A stretch of DNA of 64,000 bases. Source: Bolinopsis microptera. Lineage: Eukaryota > Ctenophora > Tentaculata > Lobata > Bolinopsidae. This document shows, piece by piece, positions 14,545-64,000 of the stretch; within the stretch, counting starts at the first letter, position 1; every line of letters starts with the position of its first letter. The notes below the pieces were generated by a model. The model was not told the origin of the DNA, did not search any database, and saw only the letters and a program-made list of their open reading frames with translations. The DNA lies in the NCBI RefSeq assembly GCF_026151205.1, contig NC_087084.1, forward strand, positions 7,305,394 through 7,369,393. Reading direction: 5' to 3'. The position numbers were made by a program, and so were the translations under genes.

Positions 14545-14652
14545 CAATGTAATCACGCGTTGTCAAGGTAATCACACGTTGCCAAGGTAATCACGCGTTG
14601 CCAAGGTAATCACACGTTGTCAAGGTAATCACACGTTGTCAAGGTAACACCA
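14545..14652. repeat. 19-bp repeat containing the WD40-type gene's stop codon
   Basis: About six copies of a unit whose minus-strand form is CTTGACAACGTGTGATTAC. The gene's terminal frame ends in the first copy at TGA (14629-14631), so the repeat starts from its last codons and extends into the 3' UTR. Confidence 0.7.
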
Positions 14653-17600
14653 CGTGATGTTTATATAAGTTTTCTGGAGATGCAGCTGACTGCGGTACAG
14701 AAGGCTGCGCACATGGAGAATGGAGACTTGTACCGCACACTGTAACTCCCCTTTTGCCACTTTAGTAGTTGGAAGACCTGGGGAGCGGTGATTATTAGAC
14801 AACATAACTAACAGTTGGTAACTAGGTTACTAGCTGGTAACTAGGTTACTAGCTGGTAACTAGGTTACTTGCTGGTCCTTGTGTTTGAAAATATCTCGTT
14901 TTCCTAAAATATATAAATTAATATTAACATATCCTTGCTTTTAATTTTCCTCAGGGAGTCAATTCATATGCTATGATATAAAACATTTCCTTGTGTTTAA
15001 AAATACCTCTATCTCCTGATGTAGGAGCACTACACTGCGAGTGTGGTTGGGATCATCATTCCCCGCCGCAGGTCGGTGTATCAGTCCTGTAGCCTCCACG
15101 TACGGGGCAGTGTCGTTCTCTGTCGGAGAACCAGGGGTCGCGGTTCCTGTTAAAGTGGGCTTGTAAGTTAAATATTTAATTAGTTATATACGGTATTGTT
15201 GTTTTTTATGATCCAATCTATCAATATAAGATACATCCTTGTGTTTGGAAATCTGAAGAATTCACCTGCAGGTATAATAGGTGGACAGTGAGTAGGCTCC
15301 TCTTCTTCAATTATTTAATTAGTTAATTAGTTGATTAGTTAATTAGTTAATTAGTTAAACAAATTTACCTGCAGAGCTGTTGTATAGATGGACAGTGAGT
15401 AGGCTCCTTTTCTCAGAGTAGTGCAGACCGTAGAATAACGTGGACTTGTTTCCCAGGGAACTGACCTGTGTAAACTGGTTAAGAGTCAGATCATGCGTTA
15501 ATTAGGTAATTGATTGGTAATTGATTGGTAATTGATTGGTAATTGATCAATAATTGATCAATAATTGATTGGAAATTAAAATTAACCATGGTAACACAAC
15601 AAACAAGCAAAAAAGCCCACAACTAACCAGGGTAGTGCCTCTGCTGAGTGGTTTATGAGACATCCTGAGAGCCAGCGTAAAGTTATCACTGTACGAACAG
15701 TTCAGCACTCTAGGGGGTGAGTTGCTGTGTCGGTTAATAAGGTTCAGCTGATTTTCATCCGTTCTCATACAGTCGTTTCGTAACATTATCTCGTAGTGTA
15801 CCCCTAGGGACATGAGGGCTGTTTGTTTGATTGCTCTTAGGGCTACAGCTTCTCCTCCTACCTGAGATGTTAATTAGTTAATCAGTTAATTAGTTAATTA
15901 GTTAATTAGTTAATTAATTAGTTAATTAGTTAATTAGTTCATTTGATCGATGATAGTTTAAAGATTGGGTGATTGGGTGATTAATAATAAAAGATTCATT
16001 CAAACCCACCCATACAAGGAACTAAGTTTAGATAATAAAACACGCAGTTACTAAGATTGAACAATTACCTCTGCAACCATGAACTGGGCCTCCTGTAGTG
16101 AACTAACGCCCCGCACCACTCGTAGAGTACACTGACTTGCGCTGTCCGTGTCAGAGAATACGCGCGGCGTGTTTTTCTGAGGGTGTCATGGTTAGTGGTT
16201 ACTGTTGTCATGGTCATTGGTTACTGTTGTCATTGTTATTATTAGTAAAGTGGTAGCTGTTACAATAAACATAAAATGAGACCGTCATGCTAATCTAATG
16301 TTTCTGCAAATAATAATAACACGAATAATCGAACCTAAATTAAGCTACAAACTTACCGGTAAGGTACGCTTAGTATTTTCAAAGTTCATTCTGATATTAA
16401 CAGGTAGTTTTGGAGAAGCTGCTTTCTTTTGAAGGTTCGTTACTGCCTGATAAAATATTATAATTTTGCGAAACGTTATCACAATGGTTATTCCAGTACT
16501 ATTTGTCAAAACCTTCATTTATAAGCAGTTTCAATATTTGTCCTTGGCTGGTATTTTAAAAAAGAATACGTGCTACTAACTGCAATAACACGTGCTACAA
16601 ACTGTAATAACACGTGCTACTAACTGCAATAACACGTGCTACTAACTGCAATAACACGTGCTATAAACTGCAATAACACGTGCTAATAACACGTGACTGT
16701 ACCTGACTGGCGAGGAACTCCAGGGAAGGTATTGACTTGCTGACTGTTATATTGTGGACGTGGTTCTTTGTTGCTACCGACAGCGAGGATCTACCCACCC
16801 AGCAAATAGCTGAGATAGGCTGAAAGGTTGCTTAGTTAATTAGTTGCTAATTGCTTGGTTAATAAGTCGATAATAGCTTTATTAATTGCTTAGTTAATTA
16901 GTTGCTAATTGTTTAATTAATTGCTTGATTAATTGGTTGGTAAAATTTCTTATTTATTAATTGGTAACAGTTTCTGTGAACCTAGAAATTTTATTTTGCT
17001 AATTGCTGTTACGCGTGTCCTTGAATGACAAAATCATTGTCAATAAAGGAAAATAAATAATTTAACTTCATTACAAAAAAGTTAAAAATTAGCCAACAAT
17101 CAACTAATAATTTATAGTAATTTAGTGCTAATTACCTTATCGCAGGGAGTGACGACCCTCTTCATGAGACTCCCTCTATTGTGGTAAATACAGACCATGT
17201 TGGCACCCAAACTGTTTACACTACCCCCTATAGCTATCATACCGTCCGTTACTCGCACCGCCATCTGGATATCAATTAGCTAATTAACAGTTACCAATTA
17301 GTTAATTAACAGTAATCGATTAATTATACTAATTGTGAAGGCAGTTTGGTGATTATATGATATGACTATTGCATTGAACGATTCGTGTTTAATTGTAGCA
17401 AGAACAACTGAACTAGTCTAAATTCTGAAATGTAAATCTTAAAGTAAACAAGTTCCAATTAAAAAAATGTATAATAAATAAATAGTGACCTTGGTAGAGC
17501 CGATAGAGAACGGAGTTAACACATGTTGCTCCTCAATCTTGTGGTACTCCGAGTCCAGGTTCATTATAGTAATAGCAGCAGAGGGGTGGTGGACTATTAG

Positions 17601-20600
17601 CAACTGTCCTCTTTCAGTGCAGTACCATGAGTGTAGCTCCTGTGCATGTGGTTATTACTATTAGAGTATTAGGTAATTGGTGGTAATTAGGTAATTAGGT
17701 AATTAGGTAATTAGATATTTAGAAAATTCAAATGTTATTAGGTAATTAGATATTGAGAAAATTCAAAATTTTGTAATTAATGACGTGGAATTTATTTATT
17801 TACTAAAACAATTGTGATAGCGACACATTTTCAATAAAATAATGCTCAGAAATAAGAATTAATGCTGTCCACTGGAGAGTCAAGAGTGTAACCATGGCAA
17901 TTGGCAACTACCGAGAAACCATGGGTAACCATGGGTAGTTCCCATGGGTACTGACTAAACTGAGAGTTAAAACTTACCTCGACCCTGGTATCTATAGGTA
18001 TTTTGGCGATGATCCTTCTCTCAGCTACACTAGTAACAACAATTTCATTAGTATTCTCCGCAGCACTGTACACTACCTGTAGATGTAACTGATATTAAAA
18101 TATTTTCTTGAATTGTGTTTCTGTTATCAGGTATCCACAGGGCCTTGTTAAGACTTTACTTATTCTATTTTCGGAGTGAAATGTTCCCTTGTAAAGATAT
18201 TTCCTTGTGTTTTACCTCGTCATGATGTTCCCTTGTAAAAATATTTCCCTGTGTTTTACCTCGTCATGATGTTCTTTTGTACAAATATTTCCTTGTGTTT
18301 TACCTCGTCATGGTGTTCCCTTGTAAAAATATTTCCTTGTGTTTTACCTCGTCGTGGTGGGACCAACAGGAGCTCTTCAGTTTAACTCCCACCTCCGGTT
18401 CTATCTCAGCTCCGTTGTAAAGAGCGTTATTGTAATACGCGTCCTGAATAGTTAATTAATTAATTAAATAATAATCCTGAATACTTGTTAGATATGTTAG
18501 CAGTAATTAGTTAATTGGGTAATTAGCATATTGACTTTTTGTAATTAGTACTTAATTGGGTGATATAATTTGTACTGACTGATAAGTTATCAGCTATCAA
18601 ACATTTCCTTTTGTTTTATTTATGGGGAAAGAAATATTGTCCACGCTGATATGATAAAATAATAATATTTCCTTGTGTTTTACTTTCGGAGAAAGAAATA
18701 TTGTCCACGCTGATATGATAAAATAATAATATTTCCTTGTGCTTCACTTTCGGAGAAAGAAATATTATCCAGGCTGATATGAGAAAAATAAGAATGTTTC
18801 CTTGTGTTTTACTTACGGAGAAGGAGATATTATCCACGCTGATATGAGAAAAATAAGAATGTTTCCTTGTGTTTTACTTACGGAGAAGGAGATATTATCC
18901 ACACTGATATGCGAGCTATTAGTCTCACTAGTCACTTTGACAAGTTTCATAATGCCGTCCTCGTAGGTAATTAACAGTGTTGGTTTGGTGTGAGCCCATC
19001 TCACTGTACAGGCTGGCACTATTCTACTAGTATCCTGCGACTCGTCTCTGAGAAGGGGGTCTTGTAGTAACCAGCTAGTTACCTAGTAACCAGCTAGTAA
19101 CTTAGTAACCAGCAAGTAACCTAGTAACCAGCTAGTAACCTAGTAACCAGCTAATAACCTAGTAACCAGCTAGTAATTTAGGTTACCAAGGGTCTTGTTA
19201 TATTTGAAGTCAAACGTGAAAATATTACTTAAAGATCATCAATTCATCGTCGTTGGAACAGTTTTAAGGTGTGTTTTTTTTGCATATTTCTGGCATTCAG
19301 CAAATGGAACCACCTAAATATTTGTAATTTTTGTGGGTATCTTACCTGATAATAACTACAGGTTTGTTTGTGACCCTGTTTCCATGTCTGTCCCAAATGA
19401 GCACGTGGTTGTAACCATGACAACTGGCCAGGAACTGGTACTTTTTACTCCATGACACGTGGGTCACGTCCTTTAGTTGGGGTCGGAGAGGGTGCTGGAT
19501 AGCGCTTAACACCGCTGAAAGAGAATTAGATTTTGGTAAAAACATCATGTGAAAGAGAGGAGAAAGAGAAGAGGCAGGGGAGAAAGGGAAGAGGAAACGA
19601 TTGATAAGCACTCAGTTTTAAAATTTTAAAGTTAAGAGAAATTATTATAACGGTATGTTTCATGAACTGGTTGTTATTTGTATCACGTGGTGACCCCCAC
19701 GGTCGCTTCACTATAGCGTCACTATAGCTTCACTATAGCGTCTGTAGCGTCTTCGACGCTACAGGGGGAGCCGCGCACTTCGTGCGCGGCGGGTCATACA
19801 ACGTATGACAAGTTGTTATTAGGAAGGGGAAATTAAATTATTAATTAATTAATTAAACACCTACGTTTCAGAACACAGACTTTGTAAGAGTTTGAGTTGT
19901 TTAGCTGCTTCTGCTCGTTAACAATAGCTACTGATACGGCTGAACTTGTGTTTCCTGAGGGGGTGATTCAAAAAATATAACCTCATGTTTGAAATGAGAG
20001 ACGGTGAAACTAAATTGAAATAATTTGCGTGATATATTCCTGTACCAAGATGAATTTCTATTAAATATAACATGATTAATAAACAGATACACAACAATAT
20101 GCTAATACATAAAATAACAAGAATTGCGCCCGTTGTTTCGTTTTGGCGGACGCTAGATTTCCGTTCACTATAATTATAAATATAAGCTCCAATCAGCTCA
20201 CTTCATAATAATAATATTGATACACATCAGTACACTATACTACGCATACCACGTACAAATTGGGCTTATAACCTAATACTATACATAGCATAGTATACAT
20301 TTAAATTCACTCGCGCCGCGCATTCATTGACAGGCTAGCTATATACATCAAATCTCCGCAAGCAATACTCGCGCGCTGCACTGCGCGCTAGTTGTCATGG
20401 TAACGGACGGAAGGAATGACACCATATTTTAACCCACCTACTGCTATCTCCAAAATCCACGTTTTTCTGCAAAAACGTCCATTCGTAACCTTTCACTATT
20501 GCCTTTTTACAAAAGGGTGAACGGAAAAAATATTCTTTAAAAAACAATATCCTAAATGCAACCTACCAGTAGCCAGCAGACCGCCGCCATCAGGGTCAGG

Positions 20601-26786: not shown

Positions 26787-26870
26787 AGTGGGGTCAGTGC
26801 CCAGTAGGGCCCTTCATTACGCCACTGGACGGTGGTATAAGACCCAACGTATGGGTACTGACTCTTGCCC

Positions 26871-26936: not shown

Positions 26937-26939
26937 TTA

Positions 26940-28370: not shown

Positions 28371-28374
28371 TCAT

Positions 28375-43090: not shown

Positions 43091-43094
43091 ATAA

Positions 43095-45590: not shown

Positions 45591-45595
45591 TAATA

Positions 45596-45860
45596 TTTAT
45601 TATTTATTAATTATTTATTAATTATTTATTTATTATTTATTTATTATTTATTTATTATTTATTTATTATTTATTTATTATTTATTTATTATTTATTTATT
45701 ATTTATTTATTATTTATTTATTATTTATTTATTATTTATTTATTATTTATTTATTATTTATTCATTATTTATTTATTATTTATTTATTATTTATTTATTA
45801 TTTATTTATTATTTATTTATTATTTATTTATTATTTATTTATTATTATATTATTATTTAT
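45596..45860 (-). repeat. AATAAA array after the metalloproteinase stop
   Basis: About 24 copies of an 11-base unit. On the coding strand it reads AATAAATAATAAAT..., so each unit contains at least one AATAAA hexamer. It begins 55-70 bases downstream of the TAG at 45914-45916, where the poly(A) signal is expected. No other signal is seen. Confidence 0.85.
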
Positions 45861-45913: not shown

Positions 45914-48900
45914 CTAGTAGCACATTTCAAGGTTCATGTCTTCGTCAAACCGACGGTAGGAATATTTATCTACCCGTCCTCCGTCACCTTCGATAAGCTC
46001 TCTTGATCTGAACAGCACGTATTTCTGAAAAAAAGGTGTGTATACATGAACAATGTTTGCGATAGCGGGGATAAATGTGAGAGCAGGACCGCTGAAGTAT
46101 CATAATTTCCTTTTTAAAGCATTATATAATTAGAATTTAATAGGGTCAGACCGTTCATTTTTTATTAAGTAAAACAAAATTTAAGTAAAACAAAATTTTT
46201 TATTGTGCTCTGTTACTTATACAGGGTGCAGCTCAAAAGTAATTCTGACCACCCGCAACCCTTTAATAACTGTTGTACACTGTTATTAATATGATAACAA
46301 GCTAAACAAGGATTTTATCGAGAGCTTTACCTCAGGTGCTTGTTCGCTACCGGTGTAGAAATATCCTCGTAGGAATGCGTCAAAAGCTCCACTCACATGG
46401 ACTGATTTTTCTCCTGGAAATAAAAAAAAATTGAATAGTGTACGATTTAATAACTTTACAATGTTGAAAAACAATTCATAATGTTCAATGTTCACTAGAA
46501 GGTTCTGACTGTCTTACTAAAAGGTTCTGACTGTCTTACTAGAAGGTTCTGACTGTCTTACTAGAAGGTTCTGACTGTCTTACTAGAAGGTTCTGACTGT
46601 CTTACTAGAAGGTTCTGACTGTCTTACTAGAAGGTTCTGACTGTCTTACTAGAAGGTTCTGACTGTCTTACTAGAAGGTTCTGACTGTCTTACTAGAAGG
46701 TTCTGACTGTCTTACTAGAAGGTTCTGACTGTCTTACTAGAAGGTTCTGACTGTCTTACTAGAAGGTTCTGACTGTCTTACTAGAAGGTTCTGACTGTCT
46801 TACTAGAAGGTTCTGACTGTCTTACTAGAAGGTTCTGACTGTCTTACTAGAAGGTTCTGACTGTCTTACTAGAAGGTTCTGACTGTCTTACTAGAAGGTT
46901 CTGACTGTCTTACTAGAAGGTTCTGACTGTCTTACTAGAAGGTTCTGACTGTCTTACTAGAAGGTTCTGACTGTCTTACTAGAAGGTTCTGACTGTCTTA
47001 CTAGAAGGTTCTGACTGTCTTACTAGAAGGTTCTGACTGTCTTACTAGAAGGTTCTGACTGTCTTACTAGAAGGTTCTGACTGTCTTACTAGAAGGTTCT
47101 GACTGTCTTACTAGAAGGTTCTGACTGTCTTACTAGAAGGTTCTGACTGTCTTACTAGAAGGTTCTGACTGTCTTACTAGAAGGTTCTGACTGTCTTACT
47201 AGAAGGTTCTGACTGTCTTACTAGAAGGTTCTGACTGTCTTACTAGAAGGTTCTGACTGTCTTACTAGAAGGTTCTGACTGTCTTACTAGAAGGTTCTGA
47301 CTGTCTTACTAGAAGGTTCTGACTGTCTTACTAGAAGGTTCTGACTGTCTTACTAGAAGGTTCTGACTGTCTTACTAGAAGGTTCTGACTGTCTTACTAG
47401 AAGGTTCTGACTGTCTTACTAGAAGGTTCTGACTGTCTTACTAGAAGGTTCTGACTGTCTTACTAGAAGGTTCTGACTGTCTTACTAGAAGGTTCTGACT
47501 GTCTTACTAGAAGGTTCTGACTGTCTTACTAGAAGGTTCTGACTGTCTTACTAGAAGGTTCTGACTGTCTTACTAGAAGGTTCTGACTGTCTTACTAGAA
47601 GGTTCTGACTGTCTTACTAGAAGGTTCTGACTGTCTTACTAGAAGGTTCTGACTGTCTTACTAGAAGGTTCTGACTGTCTTACTAGAAGGTTCTGACTGT
47701 CTTACTAGAAGGTTCTGACTGTCTTACTAGAAGGTTCTGACTGTCTTACTAGAAGGTTCTGACTGTCTTACTAGAAGGTTCTGACTGTCTTACTAGAAGG
47801 TTCTGACTGTCTTACTAGAAGGTTCTGACTGTCTTACTAGAAGGTTCTGACTGTCTTACTAGAAGGTTCTGACTGTCTTACTAGAAGGTTCTGACTGTCT
47901 TACTAGAAGGTTCTGACTGTCTTACTAGAAGGTTCTGACTGTCTTACTAGAAGGTTCTGACTGTCTTACTAGAAGGTTCTGACTGTCTTACTAGAAGGTT
48001 CTGACTGTCTTACTAGAAGGTTCTGACTGTCTTACTAGAAGGTTCTGACTGTCTTACTAGAAGGTTCTGACTGTCTTACTAGAAGGTTCTGACTGTCTTA
48101 CTAGAAGGTTCTGACTGTCTTACTAGAAGGTTCTGACTGTCTTACTAGAAGGTTCTGACTGTCTTACTAGAAGGTTCTGACTGTCTTACTAGAAGGTTCT
48201 GACTGTCTTACTAGAAGGTTCTGACTGTCTTACTAGAAGGTTCTGACTGTCTTACTAGAAGGTTCTGACTGTCTTACTAGAAGGTTCTGACTGTCTTACT
48301 AGAAGGTTCTGACTGTCTTACTAGAAGGTTCTGACTGTCTTACTAGAAGGTTCTGACTGTCTTACTAGAAGGTTCTGACTGTCTTACTAGAAGGTTCTGA
48401 CTGTCTTACTAGAAGGTTCTGACTGTCTTACTAGAAGGTTCTGACTGTCTTACTAGAAGGTTCTGACTGTCTTACTAGAAGGTTCTGACTGTCTTACTAG
48501 AAGGTTCTGACTGTCTTACTAGAAGGTTCTGACTGTCTTACTAGAAGGTTCTGACTGTCTTACTAGAAGGTTCTGACTGTCTTACTAGAAGGTTCTGACT
48601 GTCTTACTAGAAGGTTCTGACTGTCTTACTAGAAGGTTCTGACTGTCTTACTAGAAGGTTCTGACTGTCTTACTAGAAGGTTCTGACTGTCTTACTAGAA
48701 GGTTCTGACTGTCTTACTAGAAGGTTCTGACTGTCTTACTAGAAGGTTCTGACTGTCTTACTAGAAGGTTCTGACTGTCTTACTAGAAGGTTCTGACTGT
48801 CTTACTAGAAGGTTCTGACTGTCTTACTAGAAGGTTCTGACTGTCTTACTAGAAGGTTCTGACTGTCTTACTAGAAGGTTCTGACTGTCTTACTAGAAGG

Positions 48901-51900
48901 TTCTGACTGTCTTACTAGAAGGTTCTGACTGTCTTACTAGAAGGTTCTGACTGTCTTACTAGAAGGTTCTGACTGTCTTACTAGAAGGTTCTGACTGTCT
49001 TACTAGAAGGTTCTGACTGTCTTACTAGAAGGTTCTGACTGTCTTACTAGAAGGTTCTGACTGTCTTACTAGAAGGTTCTGACTGTCTTACTAGAAGGTT
49101 CTGACTGTCTTACTAGAAGGTTCTGACTGTCTTACTAGAAGGTTCTGACTGTCTTACTAGAAGGTTCTGACTGTCTTACTAGAAGGTTCTGACTGTCTTA
49201 CTAGAAGGTTCTGACTGTCTTACTAGAAGGTTCTGACTGTCTTACTAGAAGGTTCTGACTGTCTTACTAGAAGGTTCTGACTGTCTTACTAGAAGGTTCT
49301 GACTGTCTTACTAGAAGGTTCTGACTGTCTTACTAGAAGGTTCTGACTGTCTTACTAGAAGGTTCTGACTGTCTTACTAGAAGGTTCTGACTGTCTTACT
49401 AGAAGGTTCTGACTGTCTTACTAGAAGGTTCTGACTGTCTTACTAGAAGGTTCTGACTGTCTTACTAGAAGGTTCTGACTGTCTTACTAGAAGGTTCTGA
49501 CTGTCTTACTAGAAGGTTCTGACTGTCTTACTAGAAGGTTCTGACTGTCTTACTAGAAGGTTCTGACTGTCTTACTAGAAGGTTCTGACTGTCTTACTAG
49601 AAGGTTCTGACTGTCTTACTAGAAGGTTCTGACTGTCTTACTAGAAGGTTCTGACTGTCTTACTAGAAGGTTCTGACTGTCTTACTAGAAGGTTCTGACT
49701 GTCTTACTAGAAGGTTCTGACTGTCTTACTAGAAGGTTCTGACTGTCTTACTAGAAGGTTCTGACTGTCTTACTAGAAGGTTCTGACTGTCTTACTAGAA
49801 GGTTCTGACTGTCTTACTAGAAGGTTCTGACTGTCTTACTAGAAGGTTCTGACTGTCTTACTAGAAGGTTCTGACTGTCTTACTAGAAGGTTCTGACTGT
49901 CTTACTAGAAGGTTCTGACTGTCTTACTAGAAGGTTCTGACTGTCTTACTAGAAGGTTCTGACTGTCTTACTAGAAGGTTCTGACTGTCTTACTAGAAGG
50001 TTCTGACTGTCTTACTAGAAGGTTCTGACTGTCTTACTAGAAGGTTCTGACTGTCTTACTAGAAGGTTCTGACTGTCTTACTAGAAGGTTCTGACTGTCT
50101 TACTAGAAGGTTCTGACTGTCTTACTAGAAGGTTCTGACTGTCTTACTAGAAGGTTCTGACTGTCTTACTAGAAGGTTCTGACTGTCTTACTAGAAGGTT
50201 CTGACTGTCTTACTAGAAGGTTCTGACTGTCTTACTAGAAGGTTCTGACTGTCTTACTAGAAGGTTCTGACTGTCTTACTAGAAGGTTCTGACTGTCTTA
50301 CTAGAAGGTTCTGACTGTCTTACTAGAAGGTTCTGACTGTCTTACTAGAAGGTTCTGACTGTCTTACTAGAAGGTTCTGACTGTCTTACTAGAAGGTTCT
50401 GACTGTCTTACTAGAAGGTTCTGACTGTCTTACTAGAAGGTTCTGACTGTCTTACTAGAAGGTTCTGACTGTCTTACTAGAAGGTTCTGACTGTCTTACT
50501 AGAAGGTTCTGACTGTCTTACTAGAAGGTTCTGACTGTCTTACTAGAAGGTTCTGACTGTCTTACTAGAAGGTTCTGACTGTCTTACTAGAAGGTTCTGA
50601 CTGTCTTACTAGAAGGTTCTGACTGTCTTACTAGAAGGTTCTGACTGTCTTACTAGAAGGTCTGACTGTCTTACTAGAAGGTTCTGACTGTCTTACTAGA
50701 AGGTTCTGACTGTCTTACTAGAAGGTTCTGACTGTCTTACTAGAAGGTTCTGACTGTCTTACTAGAAGGTTCTGACTGTCTTACTAGAAGGTTCTGACTG
50801 TCTTACTAGAAGGTTCTGACTGTCTTACTAGAAGGTTCTGACTGTCTTACTAGAAGGTTCTGACTGTCTTACTAGAAGGTTCTGACTGTCTTACTAGAAG
50901 GTTCTGACTGTCTTACTAGAAGGTTCTGACTGTCTTACTAGAAGGTTCTGACTGTCTTACTAGAAGGTTCTGACTGTCTTACTAGAAGGTTCTGACTGTC
51001 TTACTAGAAGGTTCTGACTGTCTTACTAGAAGGTTCTGACTGTCTTACTAGAAGGTTCTGACTGTCTTACTAGAAGGTTCTGACTGTCTTACTAGAAGGT
51101 TCTGACTGTCTTACTAGAAGGTTCTGACTGTCTTACTAGAAGGTTCTGACTGTCTTACTAGAAGGTTCTGACTGTCTTACTAGAAGGTTCTGACTGTCTT
51201 ACTAGAAGGTTCTGACTGTCTTACTAGAAGGTTCTGACTGTCTTACTAGAAGGTTCTGACTGTCTTACTAGAAGGTTCTGACTGTCTTACTAGAAGGTTC
51301 TGACTGTCTTACTAGAAGGTTCTGACTGTCTTACTAGAAGGTTCTGACTGTCTTACTAGAAGGTTCTGACTGTCTTACTAGAAGGTTCTGACTGTCTTAC
51401 TAGAAGGTTCTGACTGTCTTACTAGAAGGTTCTGACTGTCTTACTAGAAGGTTCTGACTGTCTTACTAGAAGGTTTGACTGTCTTCTAGAAGGTTCTGAC
51501 TGTCTTACTAGAAGGTTCTGACTGTCTTACTAGAAGGTTCTGACTGTCTTACTAGAAGGTTCTGACTGTCTTACTAGAAGGTTCTGACTGTCTTACTAGA
51601 AGGTTCTGACTGTCTTACTAGAAGGTTCTGACTGTCTTACTAGAAGGTTCTGACTGTCTTACTAGAAGGTCTGACTGTCTTACTAGAAGGTTCTGAATGT
51701 CTTACTAGAAGGTTTCAGACTGTCTTACTAGAAGGTTCTGACTGTCTTTCTAGAAGGTTCTGACTGTCTTACGAGAAGGGTTCTGACTGTCTTACTAGAA
51801 GGTTTCTGACTGTCTTACTAGAAGTCTGACTGTCTTACCAAAGTTCTGACTGTCTTACCTAGAAGGTTCTGACTGTCTTACTAGAAGGTTCTGACTGTCT

Positions 51901-54900
51901 TACTAGAAGGTTCTGACTGTCTTACTAGAAGGTTCTGACTGTCTTACTAAAAGGTTCTGACTGTCTTACTAGAAGGTTCTGACTGTCTTACTAGAAGGTT
52001 CTGACTGTCTTACTAGAAGGTTCTGACTGTCTTACTAGAAGGTTCTGACTGTCTTACTAGAAGGTTCTCGACGGTCTTACTATAAGGTTCTGACGTCTTA
52101 CTAGAAGGTTCTGACTGTCTTACTAGAAGGTTCTGACTGTCTTACAGAAGGTTCTGACTGTCTTACTAGAAGGTTCTGACTGTCTTACTAGAAGTTCTTG
52201 ACTGTCGTTACTAGAAGGTTCTGACTGTCTTACTAAAGGTTTCTGACTGTCTTACTAGAAGGTTCTGACTGTCTTACTAGAAGGTTCTGACTGTCTTACT
52301 AGAAGGTTCTGACTGTCTTACTAGAAGGTTTCTGACTGTCCTTACTAGAAGGTTCTGACTGTCTTACTAGAAGGTCTGACTGTCTTACTAGAAGGTTCTG
52401 ACTGTCTTACTAGAAGGTTCTGACTGTCTTACAGAAGGTTCTGACTGTCTTACTAGAAGGTTCTGACTGTCTTACTAGAAGGTTCTGACTGTCTTACTTA
52501 GAAGGTTCTGACTGTCTTACTAGAAGGTTCTGACTGTCTTACTAGAAGGTTCTGACTGTCTTACTAGAAGGTTCTGACTGTCTTACTAGAAGGTTCTGAC
52601 TGTCTTACTAGAAGGTTCTGACTGTCTTACTAGAAGGTTCTGACTGTCTTACTAGAAGGTTCTGACTGTCTTACTAGAAGGTTCTGACTGTCTTACTAGA
52701 AGGTTCTGACTGTCTTACTAGAAGGTTCTGACTGTCTTACTAGAAGGTTCTGACTGTCTTACTAAAAGGTTCTGACTGTCTTACTAGAAGGTTTCTGACT
52801 GTCTTCTAGAAGGTCCTGACTGTCTTACTAGAAGGTTCTGACTGTCTTACTAGAAGGTTCTGACTGTCTTACTAGAAGGTTCTGACTGTCTTACTAGAAG
52901 GTTCTGACTGTCTTACTAGAAGGTTCTGACTGTCTTACTAGAAGGTCTGACTGTCTTACTAGAAGGTTCTGACTGTCTTACTAGAAGGTTCTGACTGTCT
53001 TACTAGAAGGTTCTGACTGTCTTACTAAAAGGTTCTGACTGTCTTACTAGAAGGTTCTGACTGTCTTACTAGAAGGTTCTGACTGTCTTACTAGAAGGTT
53101 CTGACTGTCTTACTAGAAGGTTCTGACTGTCTTACTAGAAGGTTCTGACTGTCTTACTAGAAGGTTCTGACTGTCTTACTAGAAGGTTCTGACTGTCTTA
53201 CTAGAAGGTTCTGACTGTCTTACTAGAAAGTTCTGACTGTCTTACTAGAAGGTTCTGACTGTCTTACTAGAAGGTTCTGACTGTCTTACTAGAAGGTTCT
53301 GACTGTCTTACTAGAAGGTTCTGACTGTCTTACTAGAAGGTTCTGACTGTCTTACTAGAAGGTTCTGACTGTCTTACTAGAAGGTTCGGTCTTACTAGAA
53401 GGTCCTGACTGTCTTACTAGAAGGTTCTGACTGTCTTACTAGAAGGTTCTGACTGTCTTACTAGAAGGTTCTGACTGTCTTACTAGAAGGTTCTGACTGT
53501 CTTACTAGAAGGTTCTGACTGTCTTACTAGAAGGTTCTGACTGTCTTACTAGAAGGTTCTGACTGTCTTACTAGAAGGTTCTGACTGTCTTACTAGAAGG
53601 TCCTGACTGTCTTACTAGAAGGTTCTGACTGTCTTACTAGAAGGTTCTGACTGTCTTACTAGAAGGTTCTGACTGTCTTACTAGAAGGTTCTGACTGTCT
53701 TACTAGAAGGTTCTGACTGTCTTACTAGAAGGTTCTGACTGTCTTACTAGAAGGTTCTGACTGTCTTACTAGAAGGTTCTGACTGTCTTACTAGAAGGTT
53801 CTGACTGTCTTACTAGAAGGTTCTGACTGTCTTACTAGAAGGTTCTGACTGTCTTACTAGAAGGTTCTGACTGTCTTACTAGAAGGTTCTGACTGTCTTA
53901 CTAGAAGGTTCTGACTGTCTTACTAGAAGGTTCTGACTGTCTTACTAGAAGGTTCTGACTGTCTTACTAGAAGGTTCTGACTGTCTTACTAGAAGGTTCT
54001 GACTGTCTTACTAGAAGGTTCTGACTGTCTTACTAGAAGGTTCTGACTGTCTTACTAGAAGGTTCTGACTGTCTTACTAGAAGGTTCTGACTGTCTTACT
54101 AGAAGGTTCTGACTGTCTTACTAGAAGGTTCTGACTGTCTTACTAGAAGGTTCTGACTGTCTTACTAGAAGGTTCTGACTGTCTTACTAGAAGGTTCTGA
54201 CTGTCTTACTAGAAGGTTCTGACTGTCTTACTAGAAGGTTCTGACTGTCTTACTAGAAGGTTCTGACTGTCTTACTAGAAGGTTCTGACTGTCTTACTAG
54301 AAGGTCTGACTGTCTTACTAGAAGGTTCTGACTGTCTTACTAGAAGGTTCTGACTGTCTTACTAGAAGGTTCTGACTGTCTTACTAGAAGGTTCTGACTG
54401 TCTTACTAGAAGGTTCTGACTGTCTTACTAGAAGGTTCTGACTGTCTTACTAGAAGGTTCTGACTGTCTTACTAGAAGGTTCTGACTGTCTTACTAGAAG
54501 GTTCTGACTGTCTTACTAGAAGGTTCTGACTGTCTTACTAGAAGGTTCTGACTGTCTTACTAGAAGGTTCTGACTGTCTTACTAGAAGGTTCTGACTGTC
54601 TTACTAGAAGGTTCTGACTGTCTTACTAGAAGGTTCTGACTGTCTTACTAGAAGGTTCTGACTGTCTTACTAGAAGGTTCTGACTGTCTTACTAGAAGGT
54701 TCTGACTGTCTTACTAGAAGGTTCTGACTGTCTTACTAGAAGGTTCTGACTGTCTTACTAGAAGGTTCTGACTGTCTTACTAGAAGGTTCTGACTGTCTT
54801 ACTAGAAGGTTCTGACTGTCTTACTAGAAGGTTCTGACTGTCTTACTAGAAGGTTCTGACTGTCTTACTAGAAGGTTCTGACTGTCTTACTAGAAGGTTC

Positions 54901-57900
54901 TGACTGTCTTACTAGAAGGTTCTGACTGTCTTACTAGAAGGTTCTGACTGTCTTACTAGAAGGTTCTGACTGTCTTACTAGAAGGTTCTGACTGTCTTAC
55001 TAGAAGGTTCTGACTGTCTTACTAGAAGGTCCTGACTGTCTACTAGAAGGTTCTGACTGTCTTACTAGAAGGTTCTGACTGTCTTACTAGAAGGTTCTGA
55101 CAGTCTTACTAGAAGGTTCTGACTGTCTTACTAGAAGGTCTGACTGTCTTACTAGAAGGTTCTGACTGTCTTACTAGAAGGTTCTGACTGTCTTACTAGA
55201 AGGTTCTGACTGTCTTACTAGAAGGTTCTGACTGTCTTACTAGAAGGGTTCTGACTGTCTTACTAGAAGGTTCTGACTGTCTTACTAGAAGGTCTGACTG
55301 TCTACTAGAAGGTTCTGACTGTCTTACTTAGAAGGTTCTGACTGTCCTTACTAGAAGGTTCTGACTGTCTTACTAGAAGTTCTGACTGTCTTACTAGAAG
55401 GTTTGACTGATACTAGAAGGTTCTGACTGTCTTACTAGAAGGTTCTGAACTGTCTTACTAGAAGGTTCTGACTGTCTTACTAGAAGGTTCTGACTGTCTT
55501 ACTAGAAGGTTCTGACTGTCTTACTAGAAGGTTCTGACTGTCTTACTAGAAGGTTCTGACTGTCTTACTAGAAGGTTCTGACTGTCTTACTAGAAGGTTC
55601 TGACTGTCTTACTAGAAGGTTCCTGACTGTCTTACTAGAAGGTTCTGACTGTCTACTAGAAGGTTCTGACTGGTCTTACTAGAAGGTTCTGACTGTCTTA
55701 CTAGAAGGTTCTGACTGTCTTACTAGAAGGTTCTGACTGTCTTACTAGAAGGTTCTGACTGTCTTACTAGAAGGTTCTGACTGTCTTACTAGAAGGTTCT
55801 GACTGTCTTACTAGAAGGTTCTGACTGTCTTACTAGAAGGTTCTGACTGTCTTACTAGAAGGTTCTGACTGTCTTACTAGAAGGTTCTGACTGTCTTACT
55901 AGAAGGTTCTGACTGTCTTACTAGAAGGTTCTGACTGTCTTACTAGAAGGTTCTGACTGTCTTACTAGAAGGTTCTGACTGTCTTACTAGAAGGTTCTGA
56001 CTGTCTTACTAGAAGGTTCTGACTGTCTTACTAGAAGGTTCTGACTGTCTTACTAGAAGGTTCTGACTGTCTTACTAGAAGGTTCTGACTGTCTTACTAG
56101 AAGGTTCTGACTGTCTTACTAGAAGGTTCTGACTGTCTTACTAGAAGGTTCTGACTGTCTTACTAGAAGGTTCTGACTGTCTTACTAGAAGGTTCTGACT
56201 GTCTTACTAGAAGGTTCTGACTGTCTTACTAGAAGGTTCTGACTGTCTTACTAGAAGGTTCTGACTGTCTTACTAGAAGGTTCTGACTGTCTTACTAGAA
56301 GGTTCTGACTGTCTTACTAGAAGGTTCTGACTGTCTTACTAGAAGGTTCTGACTGTCTTACTAGAAGGTTCTGACTGTCTTACTAGAAGGTTCTGACTGT
56401 CTTACTAGAAGGTTCTGACTGTCTTACTAGAAGGTTCTGACTGTCTTACTAGAAGGTTCTGACTGTCTTACTAGAAGGTTCTGACTGTCTTACTAGAAGG
56501 TTCTGACTGTCTTACTAGAAGGTTCTGACTGTCTTACTAGAAGGTTCTGACTGTCTTACTAGAAGGTTCTGACTGTCTTACTAGAAGGTTCTGACTGTCT
56601 TACTAGAAGGTTCTGACTGTCTTACTAGAAGGTTCTGACTGTCTTACTAGAAGGTTCTGACTGTCTTACTAGAAGGTTCTGACTGTCTTACTAGAAGGTT
56701 CTGACTGTCTTACTAGAAGGTTCTGACTGTCTTACTAGAAGGTTCTGACTGTCTTACTAGAAGGTTCTGACTGCTACTAGTTCTCTTACTAGAAGGTTCT
56801 GACTGTCTTACTAGAAGGTTCTGACTGTCTTACTAGAAGGTTCTGACTGTCTTACTAGAAGGTTCTGACTGTCTTACTAGAAGGTTCTGACTGTCTTACT
56901 AGAAGGTTCTGACTGTCTTACTAGAAGGTTCTGACTGTCTTACTAGAAGGTTCTGACTGTCTTACTAGAAGGTTCTGACTGTCTTACTAGAAGGTTCTGA
57001 CTGTCTTACTAGAAGGTTCTGACTGTCTTACTAGAAGGTTCTGACTGTCTTACTAGAAGGTTCTGACTGTCTTACTAGAAGGTTCTGACTGTCTTACTAG
57101 AAGGTTCTGACTGTCTTACTAGAAGGTTCTGACTGTCTTACTAGAAGGTTCTGACTGTCTTACTAGAAGGTTCTGACTGTCTTACTAGAAGGTTCTGACT
57201 GTCTTACTAGAAGGTTCTGACTGTCTTACTAGAAGGTTCTGACTGTCTTACTAGAAGGTTCTGACTGTCTTACTAGAAGGTTCTGACTGTCTTACTAGAA
57301 GGTTCTGACTGTCTTACTAGAAGGTTCTGACTGTCTTACTAGAAGGTTCTGACTGTCTTACTAGAAGGTTCTGACTGTCTTACTAGAAGGTTCTGACTGT
57401 CTTACTAGAAGGTTCTGACTGTCTTACTAGAAGGTTCTGACTGTCTTACTAGAAGGTTCTGTCTTACTAGAAGGTTCTGACTGTCTTACTAGAAGGTTCT
57501 GACTGTCTTACTAGAAGGTTCTGACTGTCTTACTAGAAGGTTCTGACTGTCTTACTAGAAGGTTCTGACTGTCTTACTAGAAGGTTCTGACTGTCTTACT
57601 AGAAGGTTCTGACTGTCTTACTAGAAGGTTCTGACTGTCTTACTAGAAGGTTCTGACTGTCTTACTAGAAGGTTCTGACTGTCTTACTAGAAGGTTCTGA
57701 CTGTCTTACTAGAAGGTTCTGACTGTCTTACTAGAAGGTTCTGACTGTCTTACTAGAAGGTTCTGACTGTCTTACTAGAAGGTTCTGACTGTCTTACTAG
57801 AAGGTTCTGACTGTCTTACTAGAAGGTTCTGACTGTCTTACTAGAAGGTTCTGACTGTCTTACTAGAAGGTTCTGACTGTCTTACTAGAAGGTTCTGACT

Positions 57901-60900
57901 GTCTTACTAGAAGGTTCTGACTGTCTTACTAGAAGGTTCTGACTGTCTTACTAGAAGGTTCTGACTGTCTTACTAGAAGGTTCTGACTGTCTTACTAGAA
58001 GGTTCTGACTGTCTTACTAGAAGGTTCTGACTGTCTTACTAGAAGGTTCTGACTGTCTTACTAGAAGGTTCTGACTGTCTTACTAGAAGGTTCTGACTGT
58101 CTTACTAGAAGGTTCTGACTGTCTTACTAGAAGGTTCTGACTGTCTTACTAGAAGGTTCTGACTGTCTTACTAGAAGGTCTGACTGTCTTACTAGAAGGT
58201 TCTGACTGTCTTACTAGAAGGTTCTGACTGTCTTACTAGAAGGTTCTGACTGTCTTACTAGAAGGTTCTGACTGTCTTACTAGAAGGTTCTGACTGTCTT
58301 ACTAGAAGGTTCTGACTGTCTTACTAGAAGGTTCTGACTGTCTTACTAGAAGGTTCTGACTGTCTTACTAGAAGGTTCTGACTGTCTTACTAGAAGGTTC
58401 TGACTGTCTTACTAGAAGGTTCTGACTGTCTTACTAGAAGGTCCTGACTGTCTTACTAGAAGGTTCTGACTGTCTTACTAGAAGGTTCTGACTGTCTTAC
58501 TAGAAGGTTCTGACTGTCTTACTAGAAGGTTCTGACTGTCTTACTAGAAGGTTCTGACTGTCTTACTAGAAGGTTCTGACTGTCTTACTAGAAGGTTCTG
58601 ACTGTCTTACTAGAAGGTTCTGACTGTCTTACTAGAAGGTTCTGACTGTCTTACTAGAAGGTTCTGACTGTCTTACTAGAAGGTTCTGACTGTCTTACTA
58701 GAAGGTTCTGACTGTCTTACTAGAAGGTTCTGACTGTCTTACTAGAAGGTTCTGACTGTCTTACTAGAAGGTTCTGACTGTCTTACTAGAAGGTTCTGAC
58801 TGTCTTACTAGAAGGTTCTGACTGTCTTACTAGAAGGTTCTGACTGTCTTACTAGAAGGTTCTGACTGTCTTACTAGAAGGTTCTGACTGTCTTACTAGA
58901 AGGTTCTGACTGTCTTACTAGAAGGTTCTGACTGTCTTACTAGAAGGTTCTGACTGTCTTACTAGAAGGTTCTGACTGTCTTACTAGAAGGTCCTGACTG
59001 TCTTACTAGAAGGTTCTGACTGTCTTACTAGAAGGTTCTGACTGTCTTACTAGAAGGTTCTGACTGTCTTACTAGAAGGTTCTGACTGTCTTACTAGAAG
59101 GTTCTTACTGTCTTACTAGAAGGTTCTGACTGTCTTACTAGAAGGTTCTGACTGTCTTACTAGAAGGTCCTGACTGTCTTACTAGAAGGTTCTGACTGTC
59201 TTACTAGAAGGTTCTGACTGTCTTACTAGAAGGTTCTGACTGTCTTACTAGAAGGTTCTGACTGTCTTACTAGAAGGTTCTGACTGTCTTACTAGAAGGT
59301 TCTGACTGTCTTACTAGAAGGTTCTGACTGTCTTACTAGAAGGTTCTGACTGTCTTACTAGAAGGTTCTGACAGTCTTACTAGAAGGTTCTGACTGTCTT
59401 ACTAGAAGGTTCTGACTGTCTTACTAGAAGGTTCTGACTGTCTTACTAGGTACGATGACTAGAGTTCTGACTGTCTTACTAGAAGGTTCTGACTGTCTTA
59501 CTAGAAGGTTCTGACTGTCTTACTAGAAGGTTATGACTGTCTTACTAGAAGGTTCTGACTGTCTTACTAGAAGGTTCTGACTGTCTTACTAGAAGGTTCT
59601 GACTGTCTTACTAGAAGGTTCTGACTGTCTTACTAGAAGGTTCTGACTGTCTTACTAGAAGGTTCTGACTGTCTTACTAGAAGGTTCTGACTGTCTTACT
59701 AGAAGGTTCTGACTGTCTTACTAGAAGGTTCTGACTGTCTTACTAGAAGGTTCTGACTGTCTTACTAGAAGGTTCTAATTATATTACCTGACTGATAAGG
59801 CCATGACTGTGGCTCTGCGTACACACCAGTACTTGGAGTCCACAAGTAGTACTCGCTCTCGAACAGAAACAAAACGTAGTCACGGTAACTGTGGGAATAG
59901 TGTGAGTTGAATGTATCTATTATGTGTATATATATGTTATATGTAACTATTATGTGACCATTATCTCGGAATGACTTTTTTCAGACAGTTCAATAGATAC
60001 ATTTTATGCCAAGACGTTTTGATGTTAATATGAGTTAAAAAACACAGCTCAAATGCGAACGCGCGGCTCAAACGAACCTAGCAATCCCCTTGATTTCCGT
60101 CTGAGGAAGAGGAGCAAAGACAGTGTTTTCCTCATCTTCTCCGTCCATCTCCATCCTAGACTCGTTCCAGTTCCAGCAGTACACTTTCCTTCTTCTGAGG
60201 TAATATGTTGTTTTAAAATGTTATTACTTGCATTTATTAGCATTGATTAGCATTATTTAGCATAAATTAACATTAATTCTTAGTATTAAAATATCTTAAC
60301 TGATTAGTTAGAAACTATAACAAGTTTGCTTTTTCAAATACGTCAGCTTAAAATAATTAAATCCCTCCAACTTGAAAACGACCCTTTTGAAAAGTGTATT
60401 CAAACTCACGGGTAGCTGTTAACAAAGAAGAAGGTCCTGCCATTGTCGTAGTCTGTGAAGGCTGCGTCTACTTCACCCTCCACTCCCGGCCATTGTTCAG
60501 CTACATTCTGGGGGTACCCTTCTGATACAACCGGCATGTTCCTGGTTAGTTTGGTTAGTGTAGTTAGTGGGTTAGTGTGGTTAGTGTGGTTAGTGTGGTT
60601 AGTGTGGTTAGTAGGGTTAGTGTGGTTAGTGTGGTTAGTGTGGTTAGTGTGGTTAGTAGGGTTAGTGTGGTTAGTAGGGTTAGTGTGGTTAGTGTGGTTA
60701 GTGTGTTTAGTGTGTTTAGTGTGGTTAGGGTGGTTAGGGTGGTTAGTGTGGTTAGTGTGTTTAGTGTGGTTAGTGTGTTTAGTGTGGTTAGGGTGGTTAG
60801 TGTGGTTAGTGTGGTTAGTGTGGTTAGTAGGGTTAGTGTGGTTAGTGTGGTTAGTGTGTTTAGTGTGTTTAGTGTGGTTAGGGTGGTTAGGGTGGTTAGT

Positions 60901-63566
60901 GTGGTTAGTGTGGTTAGTGTGGTTACTGCATGGTTTCTATGGTTACTGCATGGTTTCTGTGGTTACTGTGTTCAGGTTCACATTACTTTTTAAGTCAGCA
61001 ACGTTTTGTCTATTTTTGACCTCTCTGCCACCCCTTATCATTAAACAATAAACCCTGCTAAAACTGTGACCCACCTTTCATCAGCCTCCAGTCTGACGTA
61101 ATAAACCCTGCTAAAACTGTGACCCACCTTTCATCAGCCTCAAGTCTGACGTAATAAACCCTGCTAAAACTGTGACCCACCTTTCATCAGCTTCAAGTCT
61201 GGCGTAATAAACCCTGCTAAAACTGTGACCCACCTTTCATCAGCCTCCAGTCTGGCGTAATAAACCCTGCTAAAACTGTGACCCACCTTTCATCAGCCTC
61301 CAGTCTGACGTAATAAACCCTGCTAAAACTGTGACCCACCTTTCATCAGCCTCCAGTCTGACGTAATAAACCCTGCTAAAACTGTGACCCACCTTTCATC
61401 AGCCTCCAGTCTGACGTAATAAACCCTGCTAAAACTGTGACCCACCTTTCATCAGCCTCCAGTCTGACGTAATAAACCCTGCTAAAACTGTGACCCACCT
61501 TTCATCAGCCTCCAGTCTGACGTAATAAACCCTGCTAAAACTGTGACCCACCTTTCATCAGCCTCCAGTCTGACGTAATAAACCCTGCTAAAACTGTGAC
61601 CCACCTTTCATCAGCCTCCAGTCTGACGTAATAAACCCTGCTAAAACTGTGACCCACCTTTCATCAGCCTCCAGTCTGACGTAATAAACCCTGCTAAAAC
61701 TGTGACCCACCTTTCATCAGCCTCCAGTCTGACGTAATAAACCCTGCTAAAACTGTGACCCACCTTTCATCAGCCTCCAGTCTGACGTAATAAACCCTGC
61801 TAAAACTGTGACCCACCTTTCATCAGCCTCCAGTCTGACGTAATAAACCCTGCTAAAACTGTGACCCACCTTTCATCAGCCTCCAGTCTGACGTAATAAA
61901 CCCTGCTAAAACTGTGACCCACCTTTCATCAGCCTCCAGTCTGACGTAATAAACCCTGCTAAAACTGTGACCCACCTTTCATCAGCCTCCAGTCTGACGT
62001 AATAAACCCTGCTAAAACTGTGACCCACCTTTCATCAGCCTCCAGTCTGACGTAATAAACCCTGCTAAAACTGTGACCCACCTTTCATCAGCCTCCAGTC
62101 TGACGTAATAAACCCTGCTAAAACTGTGACCCACCTTTCATCAGCCTCAAGTCTGACGTAATAAACCCTGCTAAAACTGTGACCCACCTTTCATCAGCCT
62201 CCAGTCTGACGTAATAAACCCTGCTAAAACTGTGACCCACCTTTCATCAGCCTCAAGTCTGACGTAATAAACCCTGCTAAAACTGTGACCCACCTTTCAT
62301 CAGCTTCAAGTCTGACGTAATAAACCCTGCTAAAACTCACTAAAACTGTGACCCACCTTTCATCAGCCTCAAGTCTGACGTATGTACCACCTGAGATGAC
62401 GTAGGCATACTTTTCCGTGGGGTGGTTGAAGGCTGCGTGGATCTCAGATAGGCAACCTCTTCCATCTTCTGAAATGTAGTGATGTTAGTAATCTGCACTC
62501 TAGGGGATGCTTGCCTAATAAAACAATTCAGTAGATTATCACGATAGTTTAAAGTTTTGGCGTGATTCTGTATAACGCTTGAATATCACTTATATGAATG
62601 TACTGATAACAAATTGATATCAATAAAACTTTTACCAGATTCTGGAAAGTCTCCAATTTCAATGTTGTCAGGTCCAATTCCTTCAGTGGCTCCTTCTTCA
62701 GAGTCACTGTCCTCTCCCTCAGAATCATCACCACTGGATCCACCGAGTGGCCTTACCGCACCGTTTCCTTCCCCTAATATAATCCCACATTATTAACGTT
62801 ATAACATATGTTAAGCGTTATAAAATTTCAATATTTCAACTATGTTCAAATTAAAAGTTATTGCAATTATCATATGCCAGATATTCGGTGCAAAATGAAT
62901 AACGTTTGCACGTAATCTACTGATCAGCTTCTAAATTTTCGTACTTAATTTTACCACTCTAGAAAATTAACTGTCCACTAATCTAATAAAACACGAAGCG
63001 TTAAATAATCGTCAATCGTACAAATAAACGTTTATTTTACTGCAGCATGACTTACCGAAAAGAGCTCTGGCTGCTGTAATGTCATCATCAGTTAAATCAA
63101 TCTCTGTCTTGTACCCTGAAATCAAATAGGTTTTAAAACTAGATTCATGACACATATCAAATCACACATTTGTCATTTTCACAGCAATTTAAAGCCAATT
63201 CAGAGTTTTTCAAATCAATTGTTGTTGTTTTTGTTGGCCATAACTTGGACCATATATAAACTTAGAAGTTTCACATATTTTGATAAACTGAACAGTAAAG
63301 AACTGCTATTATCAGAAGTCAACGACTAAACAGGGTTATTGTAATGAAAATGAAATGATGGCGTCTGGACTTGAAAGTTTCACTTTCATTTTCAGCTCGC
63401 AGTATATTACATTATATATACCAGGATAGTAAGGTCCCATCACAGCTTTCTTCACGTCAGTGTGTCTGATACCTAACACGTGACCAAACTCATGTGTAGC
63501 TACGTAGTAGAGATTGGTTCCGGAATACTGGTCAGCAGTGAACTTCTCATCATCATCAAAATGCAT
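45914..63566 (-). CDS. Matrix metalloproteinase (M10A) with hemopexin domain, 3' part
   Basis: Eight exons, high to low: 63422-63566, 63056-63115, 62636-62773, 62357-62468, 60410-60541, 59788-59888, 46331-46413, 45914-46024. Phases match and lengths total 882 bases (293 residues plus stop). Exon 1 has HFDDDEKF and the zinc site [11 protein letters not shown] with Met-turn AVMGPYYPG; exon 2 has the closing helix ([14 protein letters not shown]). Exon 3 is an acidic Ser/Gly hinge. The rest is hemopexin-like: it opens at the Cys in [12 protein letters not shown] and closes at EMCY, the usual disulfide-paired ends, with EVDAAF and HVSGAFDAF blade starts. I count about three blades where four are usual. 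The signal peptide, propeptide switch and start of the catalytic domain lie outside the window. The product would be a secreted zinc endopeptidase of the matrix. One intron (46414-59787) is 13.4 kb, nearly all satellite. Confidence 0.92.
46493..59776. repeat. 22-bp satellite, about 600 copies
   Basis: 13.3 kb of TTCTGACTGTCTTACTAG + AAGG in head-to-tail order, wholly within one metalloproteinase intron, ending 12 bases from the donor of exon 59788-59888. Most kilobases are perfectly homogeneous. Variants and indels cluster at 51.4-52.5 kb, 52.8-53.4 kb and 55.0-55.7 kb. On the coding strand each unit has CTAGTAAGACAG, a donor-like GTAAGA, and CAGTCAG, which equals the last seven bases of the adjacent exon. 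Confidence 0.97.
59889..60405. other. Metalloproteinase intron
   Basis: AT-rich with no exon seen. Open frames on both strands around 60050-60250 lack splice signals and protein features. Confidence 0.45.
60544..60932 (-). repeat. CTAAC branch-point-like array before a hemopexin acceptor
   Basis: About 380 bases of (GTGGTTAGT)n. On the coding strand this is ACTAACCACACTAACC..., ending directly in the acceptor CTAACCAG of exon 60410-60541. CTAAC matches the metazoan branch-point consensus, so some 40 potential branch points precede one splice site. The long Val/Trp/Leu open frames are repeat artefacts. Confidence 0.9.
61046..62385 (-). repeat. Hemopexin exon end plus 5' splice site, about 25 copies
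   Basis: 53-bp unit. On the coding strand each has TACGTCAGACT(T/G)GAGGCTG, then ATGAAAG|GTGGGTCACAG and TTTTAGCAGGGTTTAT, that is, the last ~28 bases of exon 62357-62468, its donor and 25 intron bases. Nearly all copies are identical. Because each also contains TTTTAG, a 36-base, frame-keeping mini-exon could in principle be spliced from every unit. Confidence 0.93.
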
Positions 63567-64000
63567 CTGGGTTGTTATTGTATTGGTTACTGTGGTAACT
63601 GTATCTGGGTTGTTATTGCATTGGTTACTGTGGTAACTGTATCTGGGTTGTTATTGCATTGGTTACTGTGGTTACTGTTGTTACTGTGGTTACTGTGGTT
63701 ACTGTGGTTACTGTGGTTAATGTATATGGGTTGTTATTGCATTGGTTACTGTGGTTACTGTGGTTACTGTGGTTAATGTATATGGGTTGTTATTGCATTG
63801 GTTACTGTGGTTACGGTGGTTACTGTGGTTACTGTGGTTAATGTATATGGGTTTTATTGCATTGGTTACTGTGGTTACTGTGGTTACTGTGGTTACTATG
63901 GTTACTGCATATGAATTGTTATTGGATTGGTTATTGTGGTTAATGTGGTTATTGTGGTTATTGTGATTACTGTTGGGTTGTTATTGCATTGGTTAACAAT
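63564..64000 (-). repeat. 3' splice site array before the MMP catalytic exon
   Basis: Irregular units of about 30-90 bases. On the coding strand each has GTAACCAATGCAATAACAAC then CCAG or CCAT, followed by AT. This corresponds to the acceptor CAACCCAG|AT of exon 63422-63566, with GGTTACTGT repeats between. The array runs off the window end. Confidence 0.8.

Follow-up and report, generated by a model that had tools for sequence, protein, structure and literature searches.

Tandem arrays across exon-intron junctions in the ctenophore Bolinopsis microptera resemble the mirage minisatellites of amphioxus

Introns of the ctenophore Bolinopsis microptera harbor tandem arrays whose units span exon-intron boundaries, carrying part of an exon together with its donor or acceptor. 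These arrays were followed in one 64,000-nt stretch of DNA (positions 7,305,394-7,369,393 of NC_087084.1; hereafter the window, with coordinates counted from its first letter) and in independent genes of the same assembly. With a probability of about 0.8, they are mirage-type minisatellites, the outcome of short tandem duplications that arise often in short introns, grow into minisatellites, and are tolerated across one junction. They provide a dense example of mirages in a new animal group far from amphioxus, and their frequency is close to what equal tolerance of junction and intronic duplications would give.

Gene Models and Intron Samples

Exon models were obtained with a small gene finder trained on exons with homology support, all splice sites being predicted, and genome-wide searches covered 264.65 Mb. 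The minus strand of the window carries all three array-bearing genes (predicted models), and on consensus inspection 33 of 33 window introns are GT..AG after hand correction of three junction coordinates. The 3' part of a matrixin (M10) and hemopexin gene occupies 45914..63566 (gene model, splice consensus, Pfam PF00413 and, weakly, PF00045). Its first five exons are 63566-63422, 63115-63056, 62773-62636 (added by hand), 62468-62357, and 60541-60410, and the gene model places the last four at 60194-60078, 59888-59788, 46413-46331, and 46024-45914, where it reaches a stop. When the translated predicted exons are compared with Pfam, M10 is matched over 88-159/159, while hemopexin is matched weakly over 1-43/45 across 62357/60541, with a whole-protein E of 2.1e-5 and no single stretch passing alone. 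The VWD and C8 gene occupies 30790..42659 (Pfam PF00094 and PF08742), with exons from 42659-42547 to 30927-30790 and a doubtful VWD donor at 41055. Its VWD match (1-153/156) spans the array-bearing junctions 36971 and 35199, its C8 match (2-56/68) spans 34704/30927, and the Kazal- and Ig-like labels of its other exons were assigned by eye. The third gene had been described as WD40-type when the window was read from its sequence only, a label that finds no backing, as the gene matches no Pfam family at E<=0.01 and no PDB sequence at E<=1. An Rfam scan of the window at gathering scores and a tRNA scan each returned 0 matches. On the plus strand, 22590-26561 holds a 1323-aa open frame that by eye resembles a non-LTR retrotransposon reverse transcriptase, and near-perfect GAGGTAGG 8-mer arrays lie at 7504-7618 and 9086-9592 (14 and 63 copies).

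The independent introns (n=242) comprise 125 bounded by homology, 95 from the gene finder, and 22 from other VWD genes. Homology introns lie between neighboring Pfam matches in kinesin, TCP1, myosin, ABC, adaptin, and kinase genes, for which 105/109, 25/35, 72/73, 21/36, 23/29, and 8/136 matches were entered, respectively. The matches left out are mainly intronless or lack a neighboring exon match, and also include possible qualifiers, namely two kinesin rows and one of two near-identical kinase pairs. Pairs were accepted when <6 kb apart with near-continuous domain positions, a score >=2, and a residue gap <=5, and the 125 introns passing this filter include 117 with distinct junction context; for kinesin, TCP1, and myosin, 111 of 116 neighboring pairs were used. 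The kinase and sugar-transporter families give mostly single-exon matches, and loci L002-L008, six of the seven of which were run, offered too few genes. Gene-finder introns were taken from the surroundings of the first four families with coding-score and splice thresholds applied; the gene finder recovered 94/111 homology introns exactly, but its models were trained on most of those exons. The median intron length is 214 bp in the sample and 282 bp in the window.

Junction Arrays in the Window

Each of the 68 window junctions was aligned with its own intron at a score cut of 24, with at least 4 exon nt required. A copy including at least 4 exon nt was found at 10 junctions, or at 11 if one gapped match at 59788 is counted, and the C8-exon donor is one further positive, from a separate collection of copies. 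The sequence-only reading had listed places where arrays contain or abut a splice site, stop codon, or poly(A) signal, and extra junction copies with an exon part are clear at 10/14 of them: exon end and donor near 15240, 18180, 18605, 31587, 36915, and 61046, and acceptor with exon bases near 30921, 35161, 38910, and 63564. The exon end and donor proposed at 38185 are weak, with an alignment score of 22 falling under the cut.

The VWD-C8 gene holds the longest of these units. An array of ~143 bp in 23 copies (31636..34776, minus strand) repeats ~64 of the 78 nt of the C8 exon 34781-34704 with its donor GTGAGT, kept in 22/23 copies, and a GTAAC-type intron start. At the other end of the intron, a ~30-40 bp array (30924..31429, minus strand) carries the acceptor CAG and the 4 nt ATTG of the C8 exon starting at 30927 in 12 near copies. 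The 48/55-bp array at 35166..36287 (minus strand, 22 copies) contains the acceptor CTGCAG and ~34 nt of the VWD exon starting at 35199, and two copies 46 bp apart at 36910..36983 (minus strand) share 13 nt of exon end and the donor of exon 37089-36971. At 38810..38958 (minus strand), the acceptor and 19 nt of exon 38828-38712 are duplicated, with one copy lying upstream and a 20-bp TAGTAAC array separating the copies. The last 48-11 nt of exon 39243-39122 likewise recur within the intron, beyond a TAGTAAC array (39009..39169, minus strand). In the same gene, the introns that follow the unrelated exons ending at 39122 and 38278 (minus strand) share their first 20 bases, the donor among them (GTGAGTTACCGTGGTTACTA), as though donor and array start had been copied between introns.

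In the third gene, a 65-bp array of ~5 copies (18603..18914, minus strand) spans 33 nt of exon end and the donor GTAAGT, with GT at the donor place in 2/5 copies, and a 44-bp array of 4 copies (18181..18359, minus strand) spans 12 nt of exon end and the donor GTAAAA. The final 45 nt of exon 15465-15369 and its donor recur, diverged and gapped, at 15259-15306, beyond an 8-bp array (feature 15259..15413, minus strand); older, diverged junction copies thus sit past small arrays at 39122, 38828, and 15369. A 19-bp array at 14543..14647 (minus strand) had been thought to include the stop codon. It lies beyond the last open frame, which ends at 14663-14661, outside the array, in a last exon without homology support.

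The matrixin gene contains a 53-bp tandem array of 25 copies detected by TRF (61047..62382, minus strand), in which ~25 nt of exon end, the donor GTGGGT, and the intron start are repeated, including an exact 43-bp copy across the donor. GTGGGT is present in 25/25 copies, and the exon-proximal copy stands 63 bp from the next, compared with 53 inside the array. At the 5' end of the model, seven near copies of the acceptor CCCAG and ~8 nt of the exon starting at 63566 form an array at 63559..63881 (minus strand), with AG kept in 3/7. The 9-bp array (TAACCACAC) at 60543..60968 (minus strand) stops 1 bp short of the exon 60541 acceptor, and the branch-point label given to it at 60544 is unspecific. 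The AATAAA reported at 45596 is present on the minus strand in an 11-bp array past the matrixin stop (45594..45860), yet it is unspecific, and trivial because the array is AT-only. One matrixin intron is occupied by a 13.3-kb satellite of 22-bp units (ACTAGAAGGTTCTGACTGTCTT), 98% uniform, at 46494-59776, 11 bp from the donor.

Junction Arrays in Other Genes

Comparable arrays exist in kinesin genes. One kinesin intron carries a 33-bp unit 52 times, each spanning 26 nt of exon and GTAAGT, and others carry two-copy donor duplications of 38 bp and 53 bp and a 21-bp acceptor array with CAG in 37/39 copies. Other VWD genes, tried as a repeat-rich comparison, proved repeat-poor (22 introns, 6 stretches, 3 arrays) and were set aside as such; 0/3 of their arrays lie over a junction. 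In another VWD gene, at ~6422-6840 of locus L094, an array is perhaps coding (DTARDTARDT... in a predicted exon), and some repeats may thus enter exons. Two kinesin paralogues (L040 and L014, C13) have introns of 122 bp and 1062 bp, the difference being a 940-bp insert that by eye shows inverted ends, minisatellite-like repeats close to its termini, and what is likely a 9-bp target duplication.

Splice Signals and Predicted Splice Choice

Many copies, though not all, keep their AG or GT. No copy lacks GT in four donor arrays (23/23 in the C8, 25/25 in the matrixin, 52/52 in the kinesin, and 4/4 in the 44-bp array), and CAG is present in 37/39, 21/22, and 12/12 copies of three acceptor arrays. 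Signals are lost in other arrays, as GT is missing from 3/5 copies at 18603 and AG from 4/7 at 63566. Inner copies are nearly identical to one another, and copies differ within the 65-bp array. Because whole units are homogenized, conservation of the GT column is uninformative on selection.

The consequence of using the second donor was read through for eight donors, five in the window and three in kinesin genes. A stop comes beforehand in 5/8. Reading on from 18882 and 18348 meets no stop before the second donor, and the additions of 65 and 44 nt change the frame. From 62357, an open, in-frame stretch of 63 nt leads to the second donor and could add 21 residues. Coding sense therefore rules out distal use in 7/8 cases, the exception being 62357. 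The Pfam matches agree with use of the exon-proximal copy, as the VWD and C8 domains are unbroken across the arrays, and hemopexin, weakly, likewise. The second matrixin donor could nevertheless be used: with its copy in frame and no stop in 62294-62357 (minus strand), a matrixin isoform longer by 21 residues is a predicted possibility.

Frequency of Junction Overlap

Repeats of single junctions exceed chance. The first or last 40 exon nt are copied in the adjoining intron 6 times in the 33 window introns and 3 times in 220 others. In a control that matched exon ends with foreign introns, the homology and window sets yielded 0 at each of the three cut-offs, and the gene-finder set 0.2 at the lowest one. 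Junctions are not favored over the interior of introns, except by self-BLAST in the window. Under a null of random placement of tolerated duplications, the share overlapping a junction is ~2(u-k)/(I0+u-1), where u is the unit, I0 the collapsed intron, and k the required exon overlap. At a TRF score >=50 and k=4, 6/77 arrays in the 242 independent introns lie over a junction against 6.81 expected, with a 95% null range of 3-12 and hence little power, and 4/24 do so in the window against 3.47. With larger units, the expectations are 7.83 (independent) and 4.69 (window). TRF does not register the matrixin 53-bp array as overlapping because its first unit is a variant; with this array included, the window count is 5. 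At a TRF score >=80, the independent introns give 6/38 against 4.39 (P 0.26), a slight lean toward excess. The sequence-only reading had expected minisatellites to be mostly intron-internal, and this holds for 20/24 arrays in the window and 71/77 elsewhere. Its suggestion of a mechanism or selection aimed at junctions runs against the agreement of count and expectation in the independent introns, whereas its alternative, tolerance of redundant splice sites, is supported.

Duplicated 20-mers number 0-1 in exons 30-60 nt away and rise through the junction to an intron plateau. No junction peak appears in the 111 introns profiled, where donors score 3/111 and acceptors 2/111 against 5-8 of 107-111 at +30 to +60, or in the window, where the values are 4/33 and 1/33 against 6-10/33. 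On the placement null and this profile, a preference for junctions is rejected. Stricter self-BLAST clusters give the exception, with 8/14 over a junction in the window against 3.69 (P 0.009), or 8 against 3.28 when 8 exon nt are required (P 0.003); here intron 34699-30926 is off by 5 and 1 nt and its unit was set at 27 bp, which slightly lowers the expectation. Outside the window, the same method finds 3/19 against 3.09 and 2/7 against 1.34 (together 5/26 against 4.4; 220 introns, the 22 VWD introns excluded). Junction arrays per intron are likewise more frequent in the window by TRF (4/33 vs 6/242, Fisher P 0.02). Tandem repeats make up 72% of intron DNA in the window and 11% elsewhere, with over half of the window's share being the 13-kb satellite. 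Since the window was picked for this feature and is so rich in repeats, its excess is read, with some doubt, as ascertainment together with array load. Donor arrays outnumber acceptor arrays 5:1 in the independent set and 3:1 in the window TRF set, both small numbers. A donor bias would follow if acceptor copies upstream of an exon were less easily ignored than donor copies downstream of it, for which the cases are too few to judge.

Origin of the Arrays

In the favored explanation, tandem duplications of ~10-145 bp would straddle one exon-intron junction by chance and then grow, presumably by slippage or unequal exchange. Where a donor is covered, the exon-proximal copy would retain its full original context, with the exon before it and intron after it, and the extra copies would fall in the intron; for an acceptor, the mirror image would apply. 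As the exon-proximal copy keeps its context, it would remain the authentic site and the mRNA would be unchanged. With the original site left in place, a junction duplication may do no more harm than an intronic one. Exon-internal duplications would be purged, thus confining arrays to introns and single junctions, with frequencies set by the ratio of unit to intron length, and the combination of short introns and frequent arrays would make junction arrays common. We infer the growth mechanism, the absence of a fitness cost, and the actual splice choice. Against this neutral mirage model stand the self-BLAST excess in the window, the slight lean toward excess at a TRF score >=80, the open second matrixin donor, and the donor bias, which departs from the symmetry that a neutral model would give.

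The self-BLAST excess and the donor bias would fit a process aimed at junctions, such as breaks at transcription- or splicing-linked structures that are repaired with short tandem duplications. The 8/14 self-BLAST clusters, the exon-end copies in adjoining introns (6 in 33 against 3 in 220), the 5:1 and 3:1 donor ratios, and the exon-end copies flanking another array at 39122, 38828, and 15369, as if these junctions had been struck repeatedly, all speak for it. However, the count in independent introns (6 vs 6.81), the window TRF count (4 vs 3.47), and the 20-mer profile show no such aim, and the excess comes from the discovery set with its 72% repeat content, which leaves a targeted process unlikely. 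Selection for redundant splice sites, kept as back-ups or for regulated splicing, would account for the GT kept throughout four donor arrays, for the CAG of nearly all copies in three acceptor arrays, and for the open, in-frame second matrixin donor. Yet the rest of each unit is mostly as invariant, as recent homogenization would leave it, GT and AG are missing from several copies at 18603 and 63566, second-donor use brings a stop or frameshift in 7/8, and junction arrays show no excess; such selection is very improbable.

Equally improbable is that introner-like mobile introns or one spreading repeat family brought splice signals to many genes. A GTTAC/GTAAC core does recur in 8/24 window intron arrays and 13/77 elsewhere, and a query holding the 60543 array returns 62 match rows genome-wide, including itself and three to a neighboring exon part. 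These arrays, being widespread, are taken as part of a repeat load that shares a common motif. The kinesin intron that exceeds its paralogue's by 940 bp, and whose extra element has inverted ends and termini resembling arrays, also lends itself to this explanation, but that insertion is intron-internal and away from the host splice sites. The C8 unit, the sole one searched genome-wide, has 22/22 of the matches found at its own locus, which points to local duplication; the same intron sequence in many unrelated genes, the hallmark of introners, was not found for it genome-wide. The other junction units contain the exon of their own gene. A recurring local process, as the sequence-only reading proposed, is thus upheld, and its statement that the units are not one spreading repeat stands for the private C8 unit but has to be qualified for the 8/24 window arrays with the shared core.

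Relation to Known Systems

The sequence-only reading was aware of no account of this pattern at such density. Minisatellite-like duplications of intron-exon boundaries have already been described in amphioxus as 'mirages', in Adh3 and also in the globins BflGb6 and BflGb9, troponin C, and PGBD5 (PMC3087553, PMC3902484). According to these reports, amphioxus mirages involve 5' or 3' boundaries, have units of 10-160 bp with AG/GT in many copies, reportedly leave splicing undisturbed, and form clusters that vary in length in Adh3 and a globin (PMC3087553, PMC3902484). The B. microptera arrays are alike in that tandem units span exon-intron boundaries (10/68 window junctions and the C8-exon donor; 6/77 arrays elsewhere), with donor and acceptor cases and units of ~21-143 bp. 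They differ in their host, a ctenophore rather than a cephalochordate, and in copy number, which reaches 52 compared with the 3 and 6 units given for BflGb6 (PMC3087553, PMC3902484). Here, moreover, many junctions in neighboring genes are involved and their frequency is set against a placement null, with splicing predicted from one assembly. Among the papers listed for one open-access literature collection, no report of mirages in ctenophores was seen, which is not proof of absence.

Other systems share parts of this pattern. In human segmental duplications, too, exon-intron boundaries are crossed by variable tandem repeats, which can alter introns or give rise to them (De Grassi and Ciccarelli, 2009; PMC2812944), though what is described there is paralogue variation with transcripts, whereas the copies in B. 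microptera are predicted to be silent intron sequence. Intron gain by tandem duplication is similar in that splice signals are handed on when the duplicated stretch crosses an intron-exon boundary, but there a new intron arose, while here existing introns grew. Introners likewise link repetitive sequence to introns (PMC9860276), in contrast to the units considered here, which are local copies of one junction and not dispersed.

Biological Meaning

A bolder proposal is that tandem duplication in some repeat-rich genes strikes preferentially at junctions, most of all at donors, by way of transcription- or splicing-linked break and repair, which would make mirages a junction-driven class and a source of new exons and introns; this is slightly less probable still than the targeted process weighed above. 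Under the mirage-type reading favored here, a curiosity of lancelets is extended to a ctenophore, together with a count against neutral expectation. A duplication that crosses a single splice junction seems to meet about the same tolerance as one lying wholly inside an intron. An intron that carries its own donor 23-52 times in nearly identical form offers a natural experiment on how the spliceosome chooses the exon-proximal site, and junction arrays are possible raw material for new exons and introns.
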